Origin: Vitis vinifera
Lineage: Eukaryota > Streptophyta > Magnoliopsida > Vitales > Vitaceae
Direction: 5' to 3'
Assembly (NCBI RefSeq): GCF_030704535.1
Contig: NC_081813.1
Coordinates: forward strand, 528,501 to 592,500
Length of the DNA stretch: 64,000 bases
In this document: piece after piece, positions 11,401 through 30,063 of the stretch
Layout of the letters: the number at the start of each line of letters is the position of its first letter
How positions within the stretch are numbered: position 1 is the first letter of the stretch
Made by a program: the position numbers and the translations under genes
The notes under the pieces: generated by a model
Told to the model about the DNA's origin: nothing
What the model saw: only the letters and a program-made list of their open reading frames with translations
Database searches by the model: none

Positions 11401-14400
11401 TGATGGGGAAGGAGAATGCCACCAAGAAAGAGGCCATTGCTGCTTGTGTTGCTGCCAATGCTCACAGCTTCATCTCTGGCCTTCCTCAAGGCTATGATAC
11501 TCAGGTGCAAACCACACAAACATTCACATCAGCATACATAATTGCAGTCTTTTAACTCTTTAACAACTCTTACTTATATGATGCCTAATTCCTGGCAGGT
11601 TGGAGACAGGGGAACCCAACTCTCAGGAGGCCAGAAACAGCGCATTGCGTTGGCTCGAGCTCTGACCACAGATCCCAGGATCCTCCTCCTAGATGAGCCC
11701 ACCAGTGCTCTAGACCCTGAGTCTGAGTCAGTAGTCCAACAAGCCATTGACAAGATCTCTGCTGGCCGGACAACCCTTGTCATTGCTCACAGACTAGCAA
11801 CTGTAAGAAATGCGCACACCATTGTTGTTCTTAATCACGGTGCAGTTGTTGAAACTGGTAACCATCATAAGCTCATGGAAAAATCCGGGGCCTATTACAA
11901 TCTTGTCAAGCTTGCTTCTGAAGCTGTATCCAAGCCTTTGTCAAAACAAGATGGTAGTATTATTAAGGCCACTAAGCTTCCCTCTTATGAGAGGTCAGTT
12001 TATGAAGTGTCAAAATCAAAGTACATGAATGAAGCCTCAAGATCAAAGTACTTAACATCGATGCAAGAACAATACAAAGAAGAGGAGGAAGAAAAGCCAG
12101 AGCCAAAGCCTGGGAAAGTTCTAGTTTCAGAGATATTTAAGTTGCAAAGGCCAGAGCTTCTGATGCTTTTACTGGGGTTTCTCTTGGGCATGCATGCTGG
12201 TGCAATTCTCTCCATTTTTCCCTTTATTTTAGGCCTAGCCCTTCAAATATACTTTGGCGATGACACATCCAAAATGAAAAGAGAAGTGGGTGTGCTCTCT
12301 TTAGTAATTGTTGGGCTTGGGTTTGGGTGTGTAATAACCTTGGTAGGCCAGCAAGGTTTCTGTGGCTGGGCAGGCACAAAGCTTACCAAGAGGGTGAGAG
12401 ACCGCTTATTCAGATCCATACTAAAACAAGAACCGGGTTGGTTCGATTTCGACGATAATTCGACTGGAGTCCTTGTCTCTAGGCTCTCCATTGATTGTGT
12501 CACTTTTCGATCAGTTCTTGGTGACCGCTTCTCAGTCCTACTAACGGGGTTGAGCTCAGCTGCTGTTGGTCTTGGGATATCATTCTTTCTTGATTGGAGG
12601 CTAACTCTCTTGGCTGCAGCTCTCACTCCACTCACCCTTGGGGCAAGCTACTTCAGCTTGATTATCAACGTCGGACCAAGATTAGATAACAGTTCTTATG
12701 CCAGAGCTAGCAACATTGCTGCTGGGGCAGTCTCAAACATAAGAACAGTGACAACATTCTCAGCGCAACAACAGCTAGTCCACACCTTCGATCAAGCCTT
12801 ATCAGAGCCAAAGAAGAAATCAGTGAAAAGGTCACAAGTCCTAGGCCTAGCTCTTGGATTTTCCCAAGGGGCCATGTATGGAGCTTACACTCTAACCCTT
12901 TGGTTTGGTACTTATCTTATTAAAGAAGACAAAGCAAACTTTGGTGATGTGTTCAAGATCTTCCTCATTCTTGTGATGAGCTCATTCTCAGTTGGGCAAT
13001 TAGCTGGTCTGGCACCTGACACTTCCATGGCTGCGACTGCAGTTCCTGCTGTTTTCAGCATCATCAACCGCAGGCCGATGATCAGCAGTGATGGAGAGAA
13101 AGGTAGGAAGGTTGAAAGATCAAAACCAGTGGATGTAGAGCTGAAAATGGTGACTTTTGCATACCCTTCTAGGCCAGAGGTGACTGTGTTGAGGGAATTT
13201 TGTCTGAAGGTGAAAGGTGGCAGCATGGTGGCATTGGTAGGGGGAAGTGGGAGTGGGAAATCAACAGTGGTATGGCTGATACAGAGGTTTTATGATCCAA
13301 ACCAAGGGAAGGTACTGATGGGAGGAGTTGATATTAAGGAGATGAATGTGAAGTGGCTGAGGAGGCAGATAGCTTTGGTGGGTCAAGAGCCTGCATTGTT
13401 TGCTGGGAGTATTAGAGAGAATATTGCTTTTGGAAACCCTAATGCTTCATGGGCTGAGATTGAAGAAGCTGCTAATGAAGCTTACATTCACAAGTTCATC
13501 AGTAGCCTCCCTCAAGGTTATGAAACACAGGTACCATCTCTAATCCATTCAAGTATGCATTGGTTCATTAAAGACAGTTTTTCCAAATATATAAACTTCT
13601 CATTGAAGAATTAGTATTCTTACATTTTTGAAAGAAGATCCTTGTCTTGATTTTTCAACACTATGTTTCATTCTTGAAAAATTCGAGAGAAAGAAAATAA
13701 AGAAAAAAAAAATTGAAATATAGATTTAAAATTAATAAATTATTTTTACATTCTTTTTTAAATTGATTTAACTTATTTGTCCTTATTTATATATAAAAGA
13801 TTAAATAATTTTAAAAGATTAAATTTTTTTAATTATATTCGAATTTTTATATATAATTTTTCATGCTTTTTGTAAACCAAACATGGTAATCAACTGCAAA
13901 TTGATTCCATTTTGATCCAGATATTAAAGCTGAAACTCAATCAATGCTTATTTCCTTTATTTATTGAGCCTACATTCAAACCCATGAAGGATTGCCAGTG
14001 AAATTGGGTATTAGGGTTGTAACCCATTACCAAATGAAATTAAATTAGTAGCTTAACAATGGATTAGCATACCATCTATTGCAGATGTGACCCGCCTCCT
14101 ATTTCCTTTGAAATGCAGGTTGGTGAGAGTGGGGCCCAGCTATCTGGTGGCCAAAAACAAAGAATAGCAATAGCAAGGGCCATATTGAAGAAATCCAAGG
14201 TGCTACTCCTAGATGAAGCAAGCAGTGCGTTGGACCTTGAGTCAGAGAAGCATGTCCAAGATGCCTTGAGGAAGGTGTCCGAAAGGGCCACAACCATAGT
14301 AGTTGCCCACAGGCTTTCTACCATCAGAGAAGCCCATATGATTGCAGTAGTTAAAGATGGTGCAGTCACTGAGTATGGCAGCCATGACACCCTCTTGGCT

Positions 14401-16051: not shown

Positions 16052-18726
<2,675 letters not shown>

Positions 18727-20235
18727 TTCAGCAAAAGGGGATGACTTTAGGATTGTAAGTTTCTTTCTTGCAAAGGAATAACTTAATATTTAAGGCAATC
18801 TGCATTGCCAAGTAATGATAACTTAAGCCAAACAGAAGCTACTGTAAGTTTGGCCAAACATGTTTGAAATACAAATATGTTTTAAGTTATTTGTGTACCA
18901 GAACAAATAAGGCCATTGAGGCTAATTTCAATAAAAGCTTGAGAATTCATTCATTCCCTTGATATTTTCTGTCATTGCACTATGTTCTGATCAAGTAAAG
19001 GGCAGATTGTTACTTCCTTTCCTCTGGGGGAATGCCCAATGTGCCTCTTTTTCTCTCATCCAGCATTACCCAGAAGAATCAGATAACCAGTCAGCCCCAG
19101 CTGTTTGGAGAACTAGACCAAAGTATTATTGGGTTGAGATGGTCAGCTGCCTAATATTGAATTCAAGCTTCAAAGACAGCTAGTAACTAACTCACCTGCG
19201 TTGTCTTCTGTCCTGCTTGATCATTCTAAGGTTTCGGTTATAGGGGATAGGATCCAAGTGGGAGAGCCAGGGCACATGTAAAATCTCAGATCCAGGTGCT
19301 GATTGATCCAGCATGTGCCCTGCTTCTCCAGCATGGTTTAGCTACCCCAAGTAGGTTACTTGAGCGTCATAACAACACTTGGTTTTGCAATTGCCTCAAT
19401 GAAAGAATGTCTCAAAACCCGAAACAAGTCCTGCAGCTAAGACAAAGGGATCATGGTTAAGTCACAGGATTCACACAAGTTCTGCTATAGTGTCATTATG
19501 GAGGAAAAGTTTACTTATATTCTATAAGCCATGATGATTAGCTTACATGGAACCAACCAGTGAGGTCGGCCAGCATTTTTTCTTGTATGGTTGAGGGTGG
19601 GTGGTTGGTCCAGTGGCTGGACTCATAAAATCAAAGTGTTCTTTAAGCAAATCCAAGATGCGTGTGGAAAACAAATGAACTTTGGCTGAGTGACTGTTGA
19701 GGTTTGGCTGCCAAAAAGGCAGTCCATGAGGTGGTGATAGTACAATCAATTTCAAGGAAGAAATTTACCAGATGCCGACATAAGGTATTCCCTCAACCAA
19801 AGGCCGGTCACCCACCATTGACCTATTTGGAGATCTAAGAGGGCTGGAAGTTCTAAATTTATAATGCCGGCCTGCCGCTCAACAAAGGTATTCAGATGGC
19901 TAAATTGTTTATTCATACAATTATTATCATACCATAGTTCGTTCAATCATCTTAGGTGACAGACAGAATGTTTCAATTTGGAATGGCATTGGAAAGGGGA
20001 GCAGATGAAACCGAAAAATATTAGCAGTCAAGATTCCAATTCATATATTTTCAATCCACACTTACACAAGAAGTACCTCACTCATTTGACGAAAACAGCA
20101 GCAAACAATAATAACCATCTTGCTATCTACAAAATGTTGCTAAAATTTACGTGTACCAGTCTTTCAAACTCTTTTATATGAATCTATGTCCATCTCGAAA
20201 GAAGCATCATATGACATCCATTGAGTACAGAAGCC
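18727..20235. other. Intergenic between CORD and AlkB genes, hosts MIR164
   Basis: CORD 3' UTR, a miR164 hairpin at 19242-19348, and the far downstream flank of the AlkB gene (convergent to CORD). Outside the hairpin I see no protein gene; short frames at 18959-19183 and 19543-19755 have no recognisable similarity. The primary miRNA promoter should lie to the right of the hairpin, between 19350 and 20235, since the precursor is on the minus strand. Confidence 0.6.
19242..19348 (-). ncRNA. MIR164 precursor hairpin
   Basis: The minus strand carries a 21-nt sequence at 19330-19310 that begins UGGAGAAGCAGGGCACAU and ends GCU, a miR164 variant (usual form ends ACGUGCA). It sits on the 5' arm. The opposite arm (19279-19258) reads as its near-complement, AUGUGCCCUGGCUCUCCC, with one small mismatch zone, giving a clean duplex. 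The loop is about 30 nt (19280-19309). A basal stem is visible from AGGGGATAG at 19242-19250 pairing with CTACCCC at 19342-19348. miR164 directs cleavage of NAC-domain mRNAs (CUC1/2, NAC1, ORE1) in organ boundary formation, lateral rooting and senescence. The plus-strand transcript would not give the canonical mature sequence. No folding program was run. Confidence 0.92.
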
Positions 20236-25095: not shown

Positions 25096-28000
25096 AATAG
25101 CATTTTATGATATTAATATTTAAGTTATTGATCTAGCATTTTAAATAGGCTAATTAAAGCGGAAAATCACCAAAGTGACATCTTTCGTGTAGATTAGTCT
25201 GTTTGGGGTGTTAGATATTTGTGTGTATGTGATTCATGCGGGTATTGACTGGCCCAAAGGAAAGTTAATATTTGGTCAAATTGCATACATACCTGTGGTG
25301 ATAAATATGTGATAATTATAAAGGTAACTTAATGTGAATAATAAATCAATCCAAAGATAAATTTATTATTTGACATAACTTATCATCAATGTTTGATCAC
25401 TACAACAAGAGTACCACTTACAGTTAATATTATTGTCCAAAGACTTGATATTAATGTTGTGCTAGGTATCTTGAAATGTCATAATTTGCTTTTAAATTTA
25501 AAGATTATGTGTTTAATTGCTTATTTTATGTGAGCATGATGGTTTATTTGATTCATTTTATTTTGTTCTCGATTCAGCTTTTATATCAACTACTTCTATA
25601 TCTGCCAACATCAATAATGTCCCTATGTTAAATGGGACTAATTTTAAGGACTGGAAAGAGAATATGATGATTCTCTTAGGCTGCAGGGATATAGACTTAG
25701 CCTTGAGAATGCCCAAACCCGATGAACTCAACGAGGAAAGTACTCAAGAGGATGAGGTTTATTGGGGTAAGTGGGAACGTTCAAATAGGCTAAGTCTTAT
25801 TATCATGAAGCGCGGCATTCCAGAAGCTTTCAGGGGTACGGTAACCGATGAGGTTACTAATGCCAGTGACTTCCTTGCGGAAATTCAGAAACGTTTTGCC
25901 AAAAACGATAAGGCTGAAACGAGCACGCTTTTAGCAAGCTTGATTTCAATTAAGTATAAAGGCAAGGGTAATGTTCGGGAGTACATCATGGAGATGTCTC
26001 ATCTTGCTTCAAAACTTAAGGCTTTGAAACTCGAGTTATCTGATGATTTACTCGTGCATTTGGTTCTCATCTCTCTTTCTGCACAATTTAATCAATTCAA
26101 GGTCAGTTATAACTGTCAAAATGATAAATGGACTCTTAATGAGCTCATTTCATTTTGTGTGCAAGAGGGAGAGAGATTGAAGCAAGACAAGACCGAAAGT
26201 GCTCATCTGGCTAGCACTTCCAAGGATAAGGGCAAACGAAAGAATAAGGATAATAAGGTTGCTGCTTCTAATGGTCCAGAATAAAAGAAACAGAAAGTTG
26301 AGGTAACATGTTTCTTCTGTAATAAGCCTGGACATACTAAGAAGGAATGTACCAAGTATGCTGCTTGGCGTGTTAAGAAAGGTATGTTTCTTACTTTGGT
26401 CTGTTCTGAAGTTAATTTAGCTTCAGTATCTAGAAACACATGGTGGTTAGATTCTGGTGCTACTACTCACATTTGTGTTTCTATGCAGGGTTGCTTGAGT
26501 TACCGAAAACCAAGTGATGCTGAAAGATGCATTTATGTCGGAGACGGTCAGTCGGTAGAAATAGAGGCAATAGGGCACTTTAGATTATTATTGAAATCTG
26601 GTTATTTTTTGGATTTAATAGATACTTTTGTTGTACCGTCTTTCAGACGGAATTTAATTTCAGTTTCTGTTTTGGACAAATTAGGTTATTGTTGTTCATT
26701 TGGAAACAATAGATTTACATTATCTATTAATTCAAATGCTGTAGGAACCGGTTTACTTAATGTTTATGATAATCTATATTTGTTGGAAACTGTTCCGTCC
26801 TATAATGAAACCTTGCATGTGGAATCACGAGGTACAAAATGTAAATTGAATAAAGATAATTCGGCCTCATTGTGGCACAAACGCCTAGGTCATATCTCTA
26901 AATCTAGAGTTGAGCGACTTGTGTCCGATGGGATTTTGGATTCACTTGACTTTTCAGATTTTGATATTTGTGTTGAGTGTATTAAAGGAAAACAGACCAA
27001 AACAAAGAAATTAGGTGCCAATAGAGCTACAGACGTCTTAGAATTAACTCATACAGATATTTGTGGACCATACCCTACAGCATCTTGGAATGGTCAATAG
27101 TACTTTGTAACATTCATAGACGACTATTCAAGATATGGCTACCTATTTCTTATACATGAGAAATCACAATCATTGGACGTGTTCAAAACATTTAAAGCAG
27201 AAGTTGAGTTACAACTCAACAAAAGAATAAAGAGCGTCAGATCTGACCGTGGTGGTGAATACTATGGTAGATATGACGGATCAGGTGAACAACGTCCAGG
27301 ACCATTTGCTAAATACCTAGAGGAATGTGGGATCGTCCCTCAATACACCATGCCAGGATCACCTAGCATGAATGGTGTAGCAGAAAGACGAAACCGAACT
27401 CTTAAGGACATGGTAAGGAGTATGATTAGTCATTCTACTTTACCCGAAAAACTCTAGGGTGAAGCACCCAAAACGGCAGCTTATATCCTGAATCGGGTGC
27501 CAACTAAAGCGGCTGCTAAAACGCCTTATGAGCTTTGGACGGGTCGAAAGCTCAGTTTAAAGCATTTTCATATTTGGGGATGTCCAGCTGAAGCGAGACC
27601 TTATAAGCCTCATGAAAAGAAATTGGACTCTAAAACAGTTAGCAACTACTTTATTGGCTATGCAGGGCGATCAAGGGGTTTTAAATTTTATGATCCTGCT
27701 ATTAGGTCAATTTTTGAGACGGGAACTGCAACTTTTTTTGAGGATGTTGAGTTTGGGGGGGAGAAATCAGGCTAGGAATATTGTCTTTGAGGAGGAAGAG
27801 GGATCTACTATTGCTTTTGATAATGTACAGGTTTCACTACCTATCATTGATCAAGAAGTAAATTTGGATCCTCAACCAACAGACAATATTGTTCAACCCT
27901 TAATTGCAAATGAGGACATTGCTCCTGAAGAACAAACTCAACAACCTCAAGAAAATATGCCATTAAGGAGATCCACTAGAGAGAGGAGAAATGCAATTTC

Positions 28001-30063
28001 GGACGATTATATCGTATATCTCCAGGAACGTGAGGTAGAAAGTGGAATGATGGAAGATGATCCAATCAACTTCCAACAAGCCATGAAAAGTTCCAACTCT
28101 CATAAATGGATTGAAGCCATGAATGAAGAGTACAAATCTATGCAAGACAATAAAGTTTTGGAACTTGTCCCATTACCAGTTCGTACGAAGCCCATTGGTT
28201 GTAAATGGATATTTAAAACCAAGCGGGATTCAAATGGTAATGTAGAAAGATATAAAGCACGTCTTGTAGCTAAAGGCTTTACTCAAAAAGAAGGAATTGA
28301 CTTCAAAGAGACCTTCTCTCCAGTTTCTACGAAGGACTCTTTCAGGATAATCATGGCACTAGTTGCACATTATGATCTTGAGTTACATCAAATGGATGTT
28401 AAAACAGCGTTTCTCAATGGTGACATTGATGAAACAATTTATATGGTACAACCAGAAAATTTTGTGTCCGAAGACTCAAAGAATATGGTTTGTAAATTAA
28501 CTAAATCCATTTATGGGCTCAAGCAAGCTTCTCGTCAGTGGTACTTTAAGTTTCATCAAATTATTGTCTCATATGGTTTTGAGGCAAATCTTATGGATGA
28601 ATGTGTGTATCACAAATTCAGTGGGAGTAAGTATATTTTCCTGGTTTTATATGTCGATGACATATTGCTAGCCACAAATGATATTAGCATATTGCACGAC
28701 ACCAAGAGATTTTTATCAAAACATTTTGAGATGAAAGATCTTGGTGATGCCTCCTTTGTCTTAGGAATCCAGATACACCGAGATCGTTCTAGGGGTATTT
28801 TAGGATTGTCACAAAGGACCTATATTGATAAAGTCCTCCAAAGGTATGCAATGCAAAATAGCAAACCAGGTGATACCCCTGTCGCTAAAGGAGACAAATT
28901 CAGTCTTAATCAATGCCCTAAAAATAGTTTAGAAAGTCAAGAAATGCAGAAGATTCCTTACGCTTCGGTTGTGGGAAGTCTAATGTATGCTCAGGTATGT
29001 ACACGTCCGGATATTGAGTACATTGTTGGCATGTTAGGCAGATATCTAAGTAACCCTGGAATGGATCATTGGAGAGCAGCCAAGAGGGTTATGAGATATT
29101 TACAGAGAACAAAAGAGTACATGCTTACATATAGGAGATTGGATCAGTTAGAGTTCATTGGGTATTCCGACTCCGACTTTGCTGGATGCCAAGACAGCAA
29201 AAGATCCACATCAGGCTATATTTATCTGTTGGCTGGTGGAGCAATTTCATGGAGGTCTGCCAAACAGACACTCGTAACTTCATCCACCATGGAAGCAGAG
29301 TTTGTAACATGTTATGAGGCATCCAATCAAGGAATATGGCTACGAAATTTTGTCATTGGGCTGCGTGTTCTGAATGGTATTGAAAGACCACTGAAGATAT
29401 TTTGTGACAATAAATCAGCAGTTTTATATTCCAATAACAACAGGAGTTCTACAAAATCAAAATACATTGATATCAAGTTCCTAGTTGTAAAAGAAAAAGT
29501 ACAGAGTGGACAGATATCCATAGAGCATATTGGAACAAACTCCATGATAGCGGATCCGCTTATAAAGGGATTACCACCCAAGGTCTTTCATGAGCACACT
29601 GCTCATATGGGTGTTGTCTCATTTGAGGATATCCAAATTTAGTGGGAGTTTATATTATTCATTGTATATTGCTCTATGTTATGTTTAGACATTATCTATA
29701 CATTTGGATTGTGTTATGCAGAAATAAAGTATTCATTTCATTGCACTCTGTTAAATTATGCTAAAGATTTGATCTCAATAAAGTTAAGTAGGACTAGTTG
29801 GAAATAGGCATGAATAGATCACATTGCATGTAATTTCCATGTTATGCACTCATGATTGATCTATGTCATTTAGCTGTGCAGATATATGTGACCATTGTTT
29901 GGTCTAGTAACGATTGATGTAACAAAGGCCACCTTGATCCTATGTCAGTATAGTTAATGGACGAGATTGTTCAGATATACCCTAAGGACATGATAGCAAA
30001 TTTTGAGCTCATAAGGTTAAGCACATTTATTTGATTACATATGCATGTGGCCCAGTGGGAGAT

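Follow-up and report, generated by a model that had tools for sequence, protein, structure and literature searches.

The MIR164 family dampens NAC transcription factors, and a variant at the 3' end of its microRNA raises the question whether the set of NAC targets changes with it. A first-pass annotation of a 64,000-nt stretch of the grapevine genome (C9:528501-592500, hereafter the window, whose own positions are used below unless a contig is named) had proposed a MIR164 locus with an ACAUGCU ending and a possibly shifted NAC target range. We asked whether this locus is a genuine microRNA gene, which member of the family it is, and what its ending does to its targets. Our results indicated that it is almost certainly an intergenic microRNA gene, vvi-MIR164b, with a real microRNA hairpin.

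The mature 21-mer, TGGAGAAGCAGGGCACATGCT, was found exactly at 19310..19330 on the minus strand, on the 5' arm where it had been placed before, and it begins with the family sequence UGGAGAAGCAGGGCAC. Folding of 19230-19360 (minus strand) gave one stem-loop of -48.1 kcal/mol with a z of -3.79, and none of 200 shuffled sequences was equally stable. In a sliding control with 131-nt windows (step 50, both strands, n=2556), 4 were as stable as the locus, and 2 of these overlapped it. The precursor with its basal stem occupies 19244..19348 (minus strand). Its outermost pair is 19348:19244, so the end at 19348 in the earlier annotation was right and the start, given as 19242, was not. The 19-letter search pattern TGGAGAAGCAGGGCACNTG had 2 matches with up to 3 mismatches in the window, versus a mean of 0.04 in 100 shuffles, and these were the mature sequence itself (0 mismatches) and the complement of the star arm (3 mismatches).

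Within this single stem-loop the mature sequence forms a duplex with few mismatches. Sixteen of its 21 nucleotides (nt 2-6 and 9-19) are paired with the other arm; nt 1, 7, 8, 20 and 21 are unpaired, and nt 7-8 form a 2-nt internal loop. In the computed pair list mature nt 19 pairs with 19278, which with 2-nt 3' overhangs gives a putative miR164b*, CATGTGCCCTGGCTCTCCCAC, at 19258..19278 (minus strand) on the 3' arm. The star arm had been estimated at about 19279-19258 and called near-perfect: the arm was right and the position one base off, and the description was slightly generous in view of the internal loop and the unpaired nt 1. Between the two, at 19279..19309 on the same strand, are the upper stem and the terminal loop.

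The surroundings of the hairpin were judged by open frames of at least 150 codons. At lower coordinates the plus strand carries an ABC transporter frame (11542-13614) and frames with DUF936 (16052-16705) and DUF6857 (18115-18726). The hairpin starts about 0.5 kb past the DUF6857 frame, the last of them, and lies on the opposite strand; by this measure, and as far as shown, it is therefore intergenic. Farther along, plus-strand frames at 25517-29642 resemble a Copia-type retroelement by eye (gag-, integrase- and reverse-transcriptase-like). A blast of the phage collection returned no match, as expected.

To place the locus within the family, we searched the genome (495,616,077 bases in 21 contigs). 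The pattern TGGAGAAGCAGGGCACNTGC with up to 2 mismatches occurred at 13 places, and the reversed pattern at 0. Four places, on C7, C8, C9 and C14, were exact, and all four fold as a hairpin with the mature sequence on the 5' arm, the C8 hairpin having a long branched loop. Among these four miR164 hairpin loci, the C7, C8 and C14 copies end in ACGTGCA and only the C9 copy ends in ACATGCT. Four of the other nine places (C17, two on C19, and C14:29914252) lie antisense to NAC coding sequence, two (C1 and C18) lie antisense to NAC fragments, and one (C2) lies within a GRF-like gene; at C14:29925169 and on C16 no NAC gene was recognised.

This genomic set was compared with the known grapevine miR164 members, as the first-pass annotation had suggested. 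In Table 1 of PMC2831844, MIR164A, C and D of Vitis vinifera are printed as UGGAGAAGCAGGGCACGUGCA (ACGUGCA) and MIR164B as UGGAGAAGCAGGGCACAUGCU (ACAUGCU). The mature sequence of the C9 locus is that of MIR164B, identical over 21 nt to the entry as printed (PMC2822795; correction PMC2831844), where no difference was found, and it is the sole such copy in the genome. Since the published set of three plus one matches exactly what the genome holds, the C9 locus is, by sequence and by elimination, vvi-MIR164b. This gene is thus already known from the grapevine catalogue, in print since 2009, and vvi-miR164b is cited as a miRBase entry in PMC6366190. The proposal of a MIR164 locus with the variant ending was borne out and could be narrowed to this member.

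The C7, C8 and C14 copies (MIR164A, C and D) share nt 1-16 and 18-20 of the mature sequence, as well as its 5'-arm position, with the C9 copy. They differ from it at nt 17 (G, not A) and nt 21 (A, not U), so that exactly two positions separate the variant from miR164a (G to A at 17, A to U at 21) rather than the two or three 3' bases first supposed. Their loops are also longer than and different from that of the C9 copy. With blastn at 1e-5, the 3-kb C9 locus had no match to the C7, C8 and C14 loci, and the C7 and C14 loci matched each other. In the loop of the C14 precursor (C14:1476812), CACGTGCAGTTCACAAATTCTAATCTGCTCTG stands twice in tandem, a direct repeat in which the mature end is included.

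The one point in favour of a chance inverted repeat came from Rfam, where no match reached the gathering score in the window. With a relaxed threshold the locus scored 22.5 bits on the mature strand and 20.5 bits on the other strand with RF00647, whose gathering score is 64 bits, and it was absent from the listing of a larger search (E up to 0.5). The C14 copy scored 42.8 bits on its mature strand and 59.5 bits on the opposite one, the C7 copy 40.4 and 58.3 bits, respectively, and the C8 copy only 29 bits on its opposite strand. All four MIR164 loci thus fall below 64 bits, including the C14 and C7 paralogues with the standard mature form, so the gathering threshold does not discriminate here and the silence of Rfam is weak evidence against the C9 locus. 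What fails is the library model, not the hairpin or the mature sequence. A chance repeat is contradicted by the conserved 21-mer, for whose pattern the expectation in the window is 0.04 even when 3 mismatches are allowed, by the z of -3.79 and by the three paralogous hairpin loci. We consider this explanation refuted, its probability being vanishingly small.

Two further observations were made on these models. RF00647 scores the strand opposite the mature sequence higher (59.5 and 58.3 versus 42.8 and 40.4 bits), and its printed consensus, which starts with UGGAGAAGGGGAGCACGUGCA and ends with UGCACGUGCCCUGCUUCUCCAAC, resembles the complementary strand of a MIR164 precursor; reversed sequences may be among the members of the model. 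The mir-1253 model gave 22.8 bits at 19244-19344 on the plus strand, slightly more than the 22.5 bits of MIR164 but far below its own gathering score of 103, and this identity was rejected as a score that a long hairpin reached by chance.

Published expression of MIR164b in grapevine is low, with few or no reads. The corrected table of PMC2831844 lists 0 leaf reads and no precursor reads in the transcriptome; the original table (PMC2822795), partly withdrawn as unreliable, had 1 read. On the array of PMC2831844 the mature form gave a signal in leaf, inflorescence and green berry and the precursor (marked by an asterisk) in inflorescence, in rows that the table note orders by expected cross-hybridisation; cross-hybridisation of miR164a, c and d may account for the signal. 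Root levels of miR164a and miR164b are given there as significantly lower. In the copper study PMC6366190 vvi-miR164b is listed as not detected. According to PMC6794902, cold lowers its level in cultivated grapevine and tends to do the opposite in wild grape, and a NAC gene is given as its target.

The 0 leaf reads, the lack of detection in the copper study and the 2-nt internal loop in the mature/star duplex would suit a decaying and effectively silent copy, whose hairpin persists and from which little or no microRNA is made. We regard this as very unlikely. The mature sequence agrees with miR164a at nt 1-16 and 18-20, the hairpin is intact and stable, and the array did give signals for the mature form and, in inflorescence, for the precursor. 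In addition, the ACAUGCU 21-mer has reads in castor (PMC3722108) and tree peony (PMC5852092), and the keeping of a shared variant would not be expected in a dead copy.

An identical 21-mer has been published for six other eudicots: castor, tree peony, Fraxinus, chickpea, cassava and citrus. Castor rco-miR164d, citrus cj_MIR164f, mtr-miR164d (so named in Fraxinus), tree peony PsmiR164b and chickpea miR164_1 are, as printed, identical to the C9 copy in the mature sequence. Across five castor libraries the 21-mer had 2-147 reads versus 447-30783 for the other three members (PMC3722108), and in three tree peony libraries it had 2, 10 and 740 reads (PMC5852092). The 740/64 figure recurs in the PsmiR162b row of the tree peony table, possibly by a slip; that row also carries a miR160 sequence, which looks like a slip too. 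Likewise, a table in PMC9963618 puts UGGAGAAGCAGGGCACAUGCU under the name mes-miR159d (MIMAT0029191), again apparently a table slip. For Fraxinus, PMC9011107 pairs the 21-mer with both NAC021 and PSBO1. The 21-mer text also occurs in papers on cumin, common bean, soybean and Murraya.

The targets were compared by scoring sites for miR164a and miR164b with a penalty of 1 per mismatch and 0.5 per G:U pair, doubled at nt 2-13. The genome search for sites gave 39 places within 2 mismatches; 30 loci were scored and 2 more (L031 and L032) were read. At 3 mismatches there were 553 + 560 places versus 217 + 222 for the reversed pattern, and this level was left unused because it is mostly background.

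Four NAC genes in the same genome carry a miR164b site at a penalty of at most 5, with NAM domain matches about 0.3 to 1.1 kb upstream of the miR164-like sites. The penalties for miR164a and miR164b were 2 and 3 at the C17 gene (7.363 Mb), 3 and 3 at the first C19 gene (2.357 Mb; C19:2.36 Mb below), 2.5 and 1.5 at the second C19 gene (22.017 Mb; site AGCAAGTGCCCTGCTTCTCCG), and 4 and 5 at the C14 gene (29.914 Mb). The duplex energy was about 5.7 kcal/mol weaker for miR164b at the C17, C19:2.36 Mb and C14 sites, and equal within 0.1 kcal/mol for the two forms at the C19 22.017 Mb site. VvNAC05, a VIT_17s gene, is reported as a miR164 target in PMC4735847, in keeping with the site-bearing NAC gene on C17 of this grapevine genome if contigs are numbered like the chromosomes.

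These comparisons were extended to 44 NAC regions, namely the 4 preselected by their site and 40 picked by domain score, each of the latter spanning about 2.5 kb downstream of the domain. The 40 were drawn from the best 45 of 170 NAM domain matches (often two per gene), those 4 genes included; C19:25183170 was left out. At a penalty of at most 6, miR164a and miR164b had sites in the same 4 of the 44 regions, with 0/40 among the domain-picked ones; reversed microRNAs and antisense strands gave 0. A weak second match inside the C19:2.36 Mb gene passed for miR164a only (6 versus 8). Because both forms hit the same four of 44 regions, a shifted NAC target set is unsupported, and the change of range suggested for the variant did not hold up. 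Within this scope the NAC target set is unshifted and what differs is the strength of pairing.

Sites outside intact NAC genes were also read. The site in the GRF-like gene (L009, C2:2147995) had penalties of 4.0 for miR164a and 3.0 for miR164b and duplex energies of -33.1 and -33.2, respectively. It sits in an open frame, and GRF-type motifs (QLQ and WRC, recognised by eye) are present upstream of it; the exon that bears it had no Pfam match. GRF8 is listed as a predicted miR164a target in PMC10005052. Other places also lean to miR164b, for example L015 (4.0 versus 5.5 for miR164a) and L012 (4.0 versus 5.0). The place at C14:29925169 (L030) reads EHVPCFS in a short frame, and among the NAM matches listed none is nearer to it than about 11 kb. 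The C1 and C18 fragments (L008, C1:8372663, and L032, C18:14118083) align with the NAC gene at C19:2.36 Mb over 222 and 224 bases, at 83.8% and 82.6% identity. They keep the miR164 site region with an in-frame stop codon within the site and, on these alignments, look like decayed NAC copies. The site in the C1 fragment fits miR164b better than miR164a (penalty 4 versus 5.5).

A copy subfunctionalised through nt 17 and 21, preferring particular targets, would draw on the lower miR164b penalties at the C19 22.017 Mb NAC site (1.5 versus 2.5) and the C2:2147995 GRF-like site (3.0 versus 4.0), and on the similar lean of places such as L015 and L012. However, the NAC genes matched are identical for both forms (4/44), and at three of the four NAC sites miR164b has the same or a higher penalty and a duplex that is about 5.7 kcal/mol weaker. 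Even where miR164b is favoured, at these NAC and GRF sites, its duplex energy is within 0.1 kcal/mol of that of miR164a because only the terminal pair is gained, and 3'-terminal pairing is of little weight for cleavage by plant microRNAs. We therefore hold such a preference to be unlikely.

For an active vvi-MIR164b, which is the reading that we prefer, family knowledge suggests the following course. A Pol II transcript of the minus strand would fold into the miR164b stem-loop, DCL1 would cut the 21-nt miR164b out of the 5' arm, and AGO1 loaded with it would cut the mRNAs of NAC transcription factors at the conserved site that follows the NAC domain. Of this scheme, our analysis shows the sequence, the hairpin, the variant unique in the genome and the complementary sites in four NAC genes. 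A broader and rather doubtful reading is that ACAUGCU marks a MIR164 lineage of long standing, maintained separately at a low dose and in restricted tissues, that would mildly prefer mRNAs whose site lacks a C opposite nt 17 and has an A opposite nt 21, such as those of the NAC gene at C19:22.017 Mb and the GRF-like gene at C2:2.148 Mb.

In conclusion, it is mildly useful to know that the C9 copy and its three paralogues all lie under Rfam's curated threshold, and that two 3' differences change pairing strength while the NAC genes matched stay at 4/44 for both forms. MIR164b probably adds a small, tissue-restricted dose to that of the three ACGUGCA copies, without NAC targets of its own.
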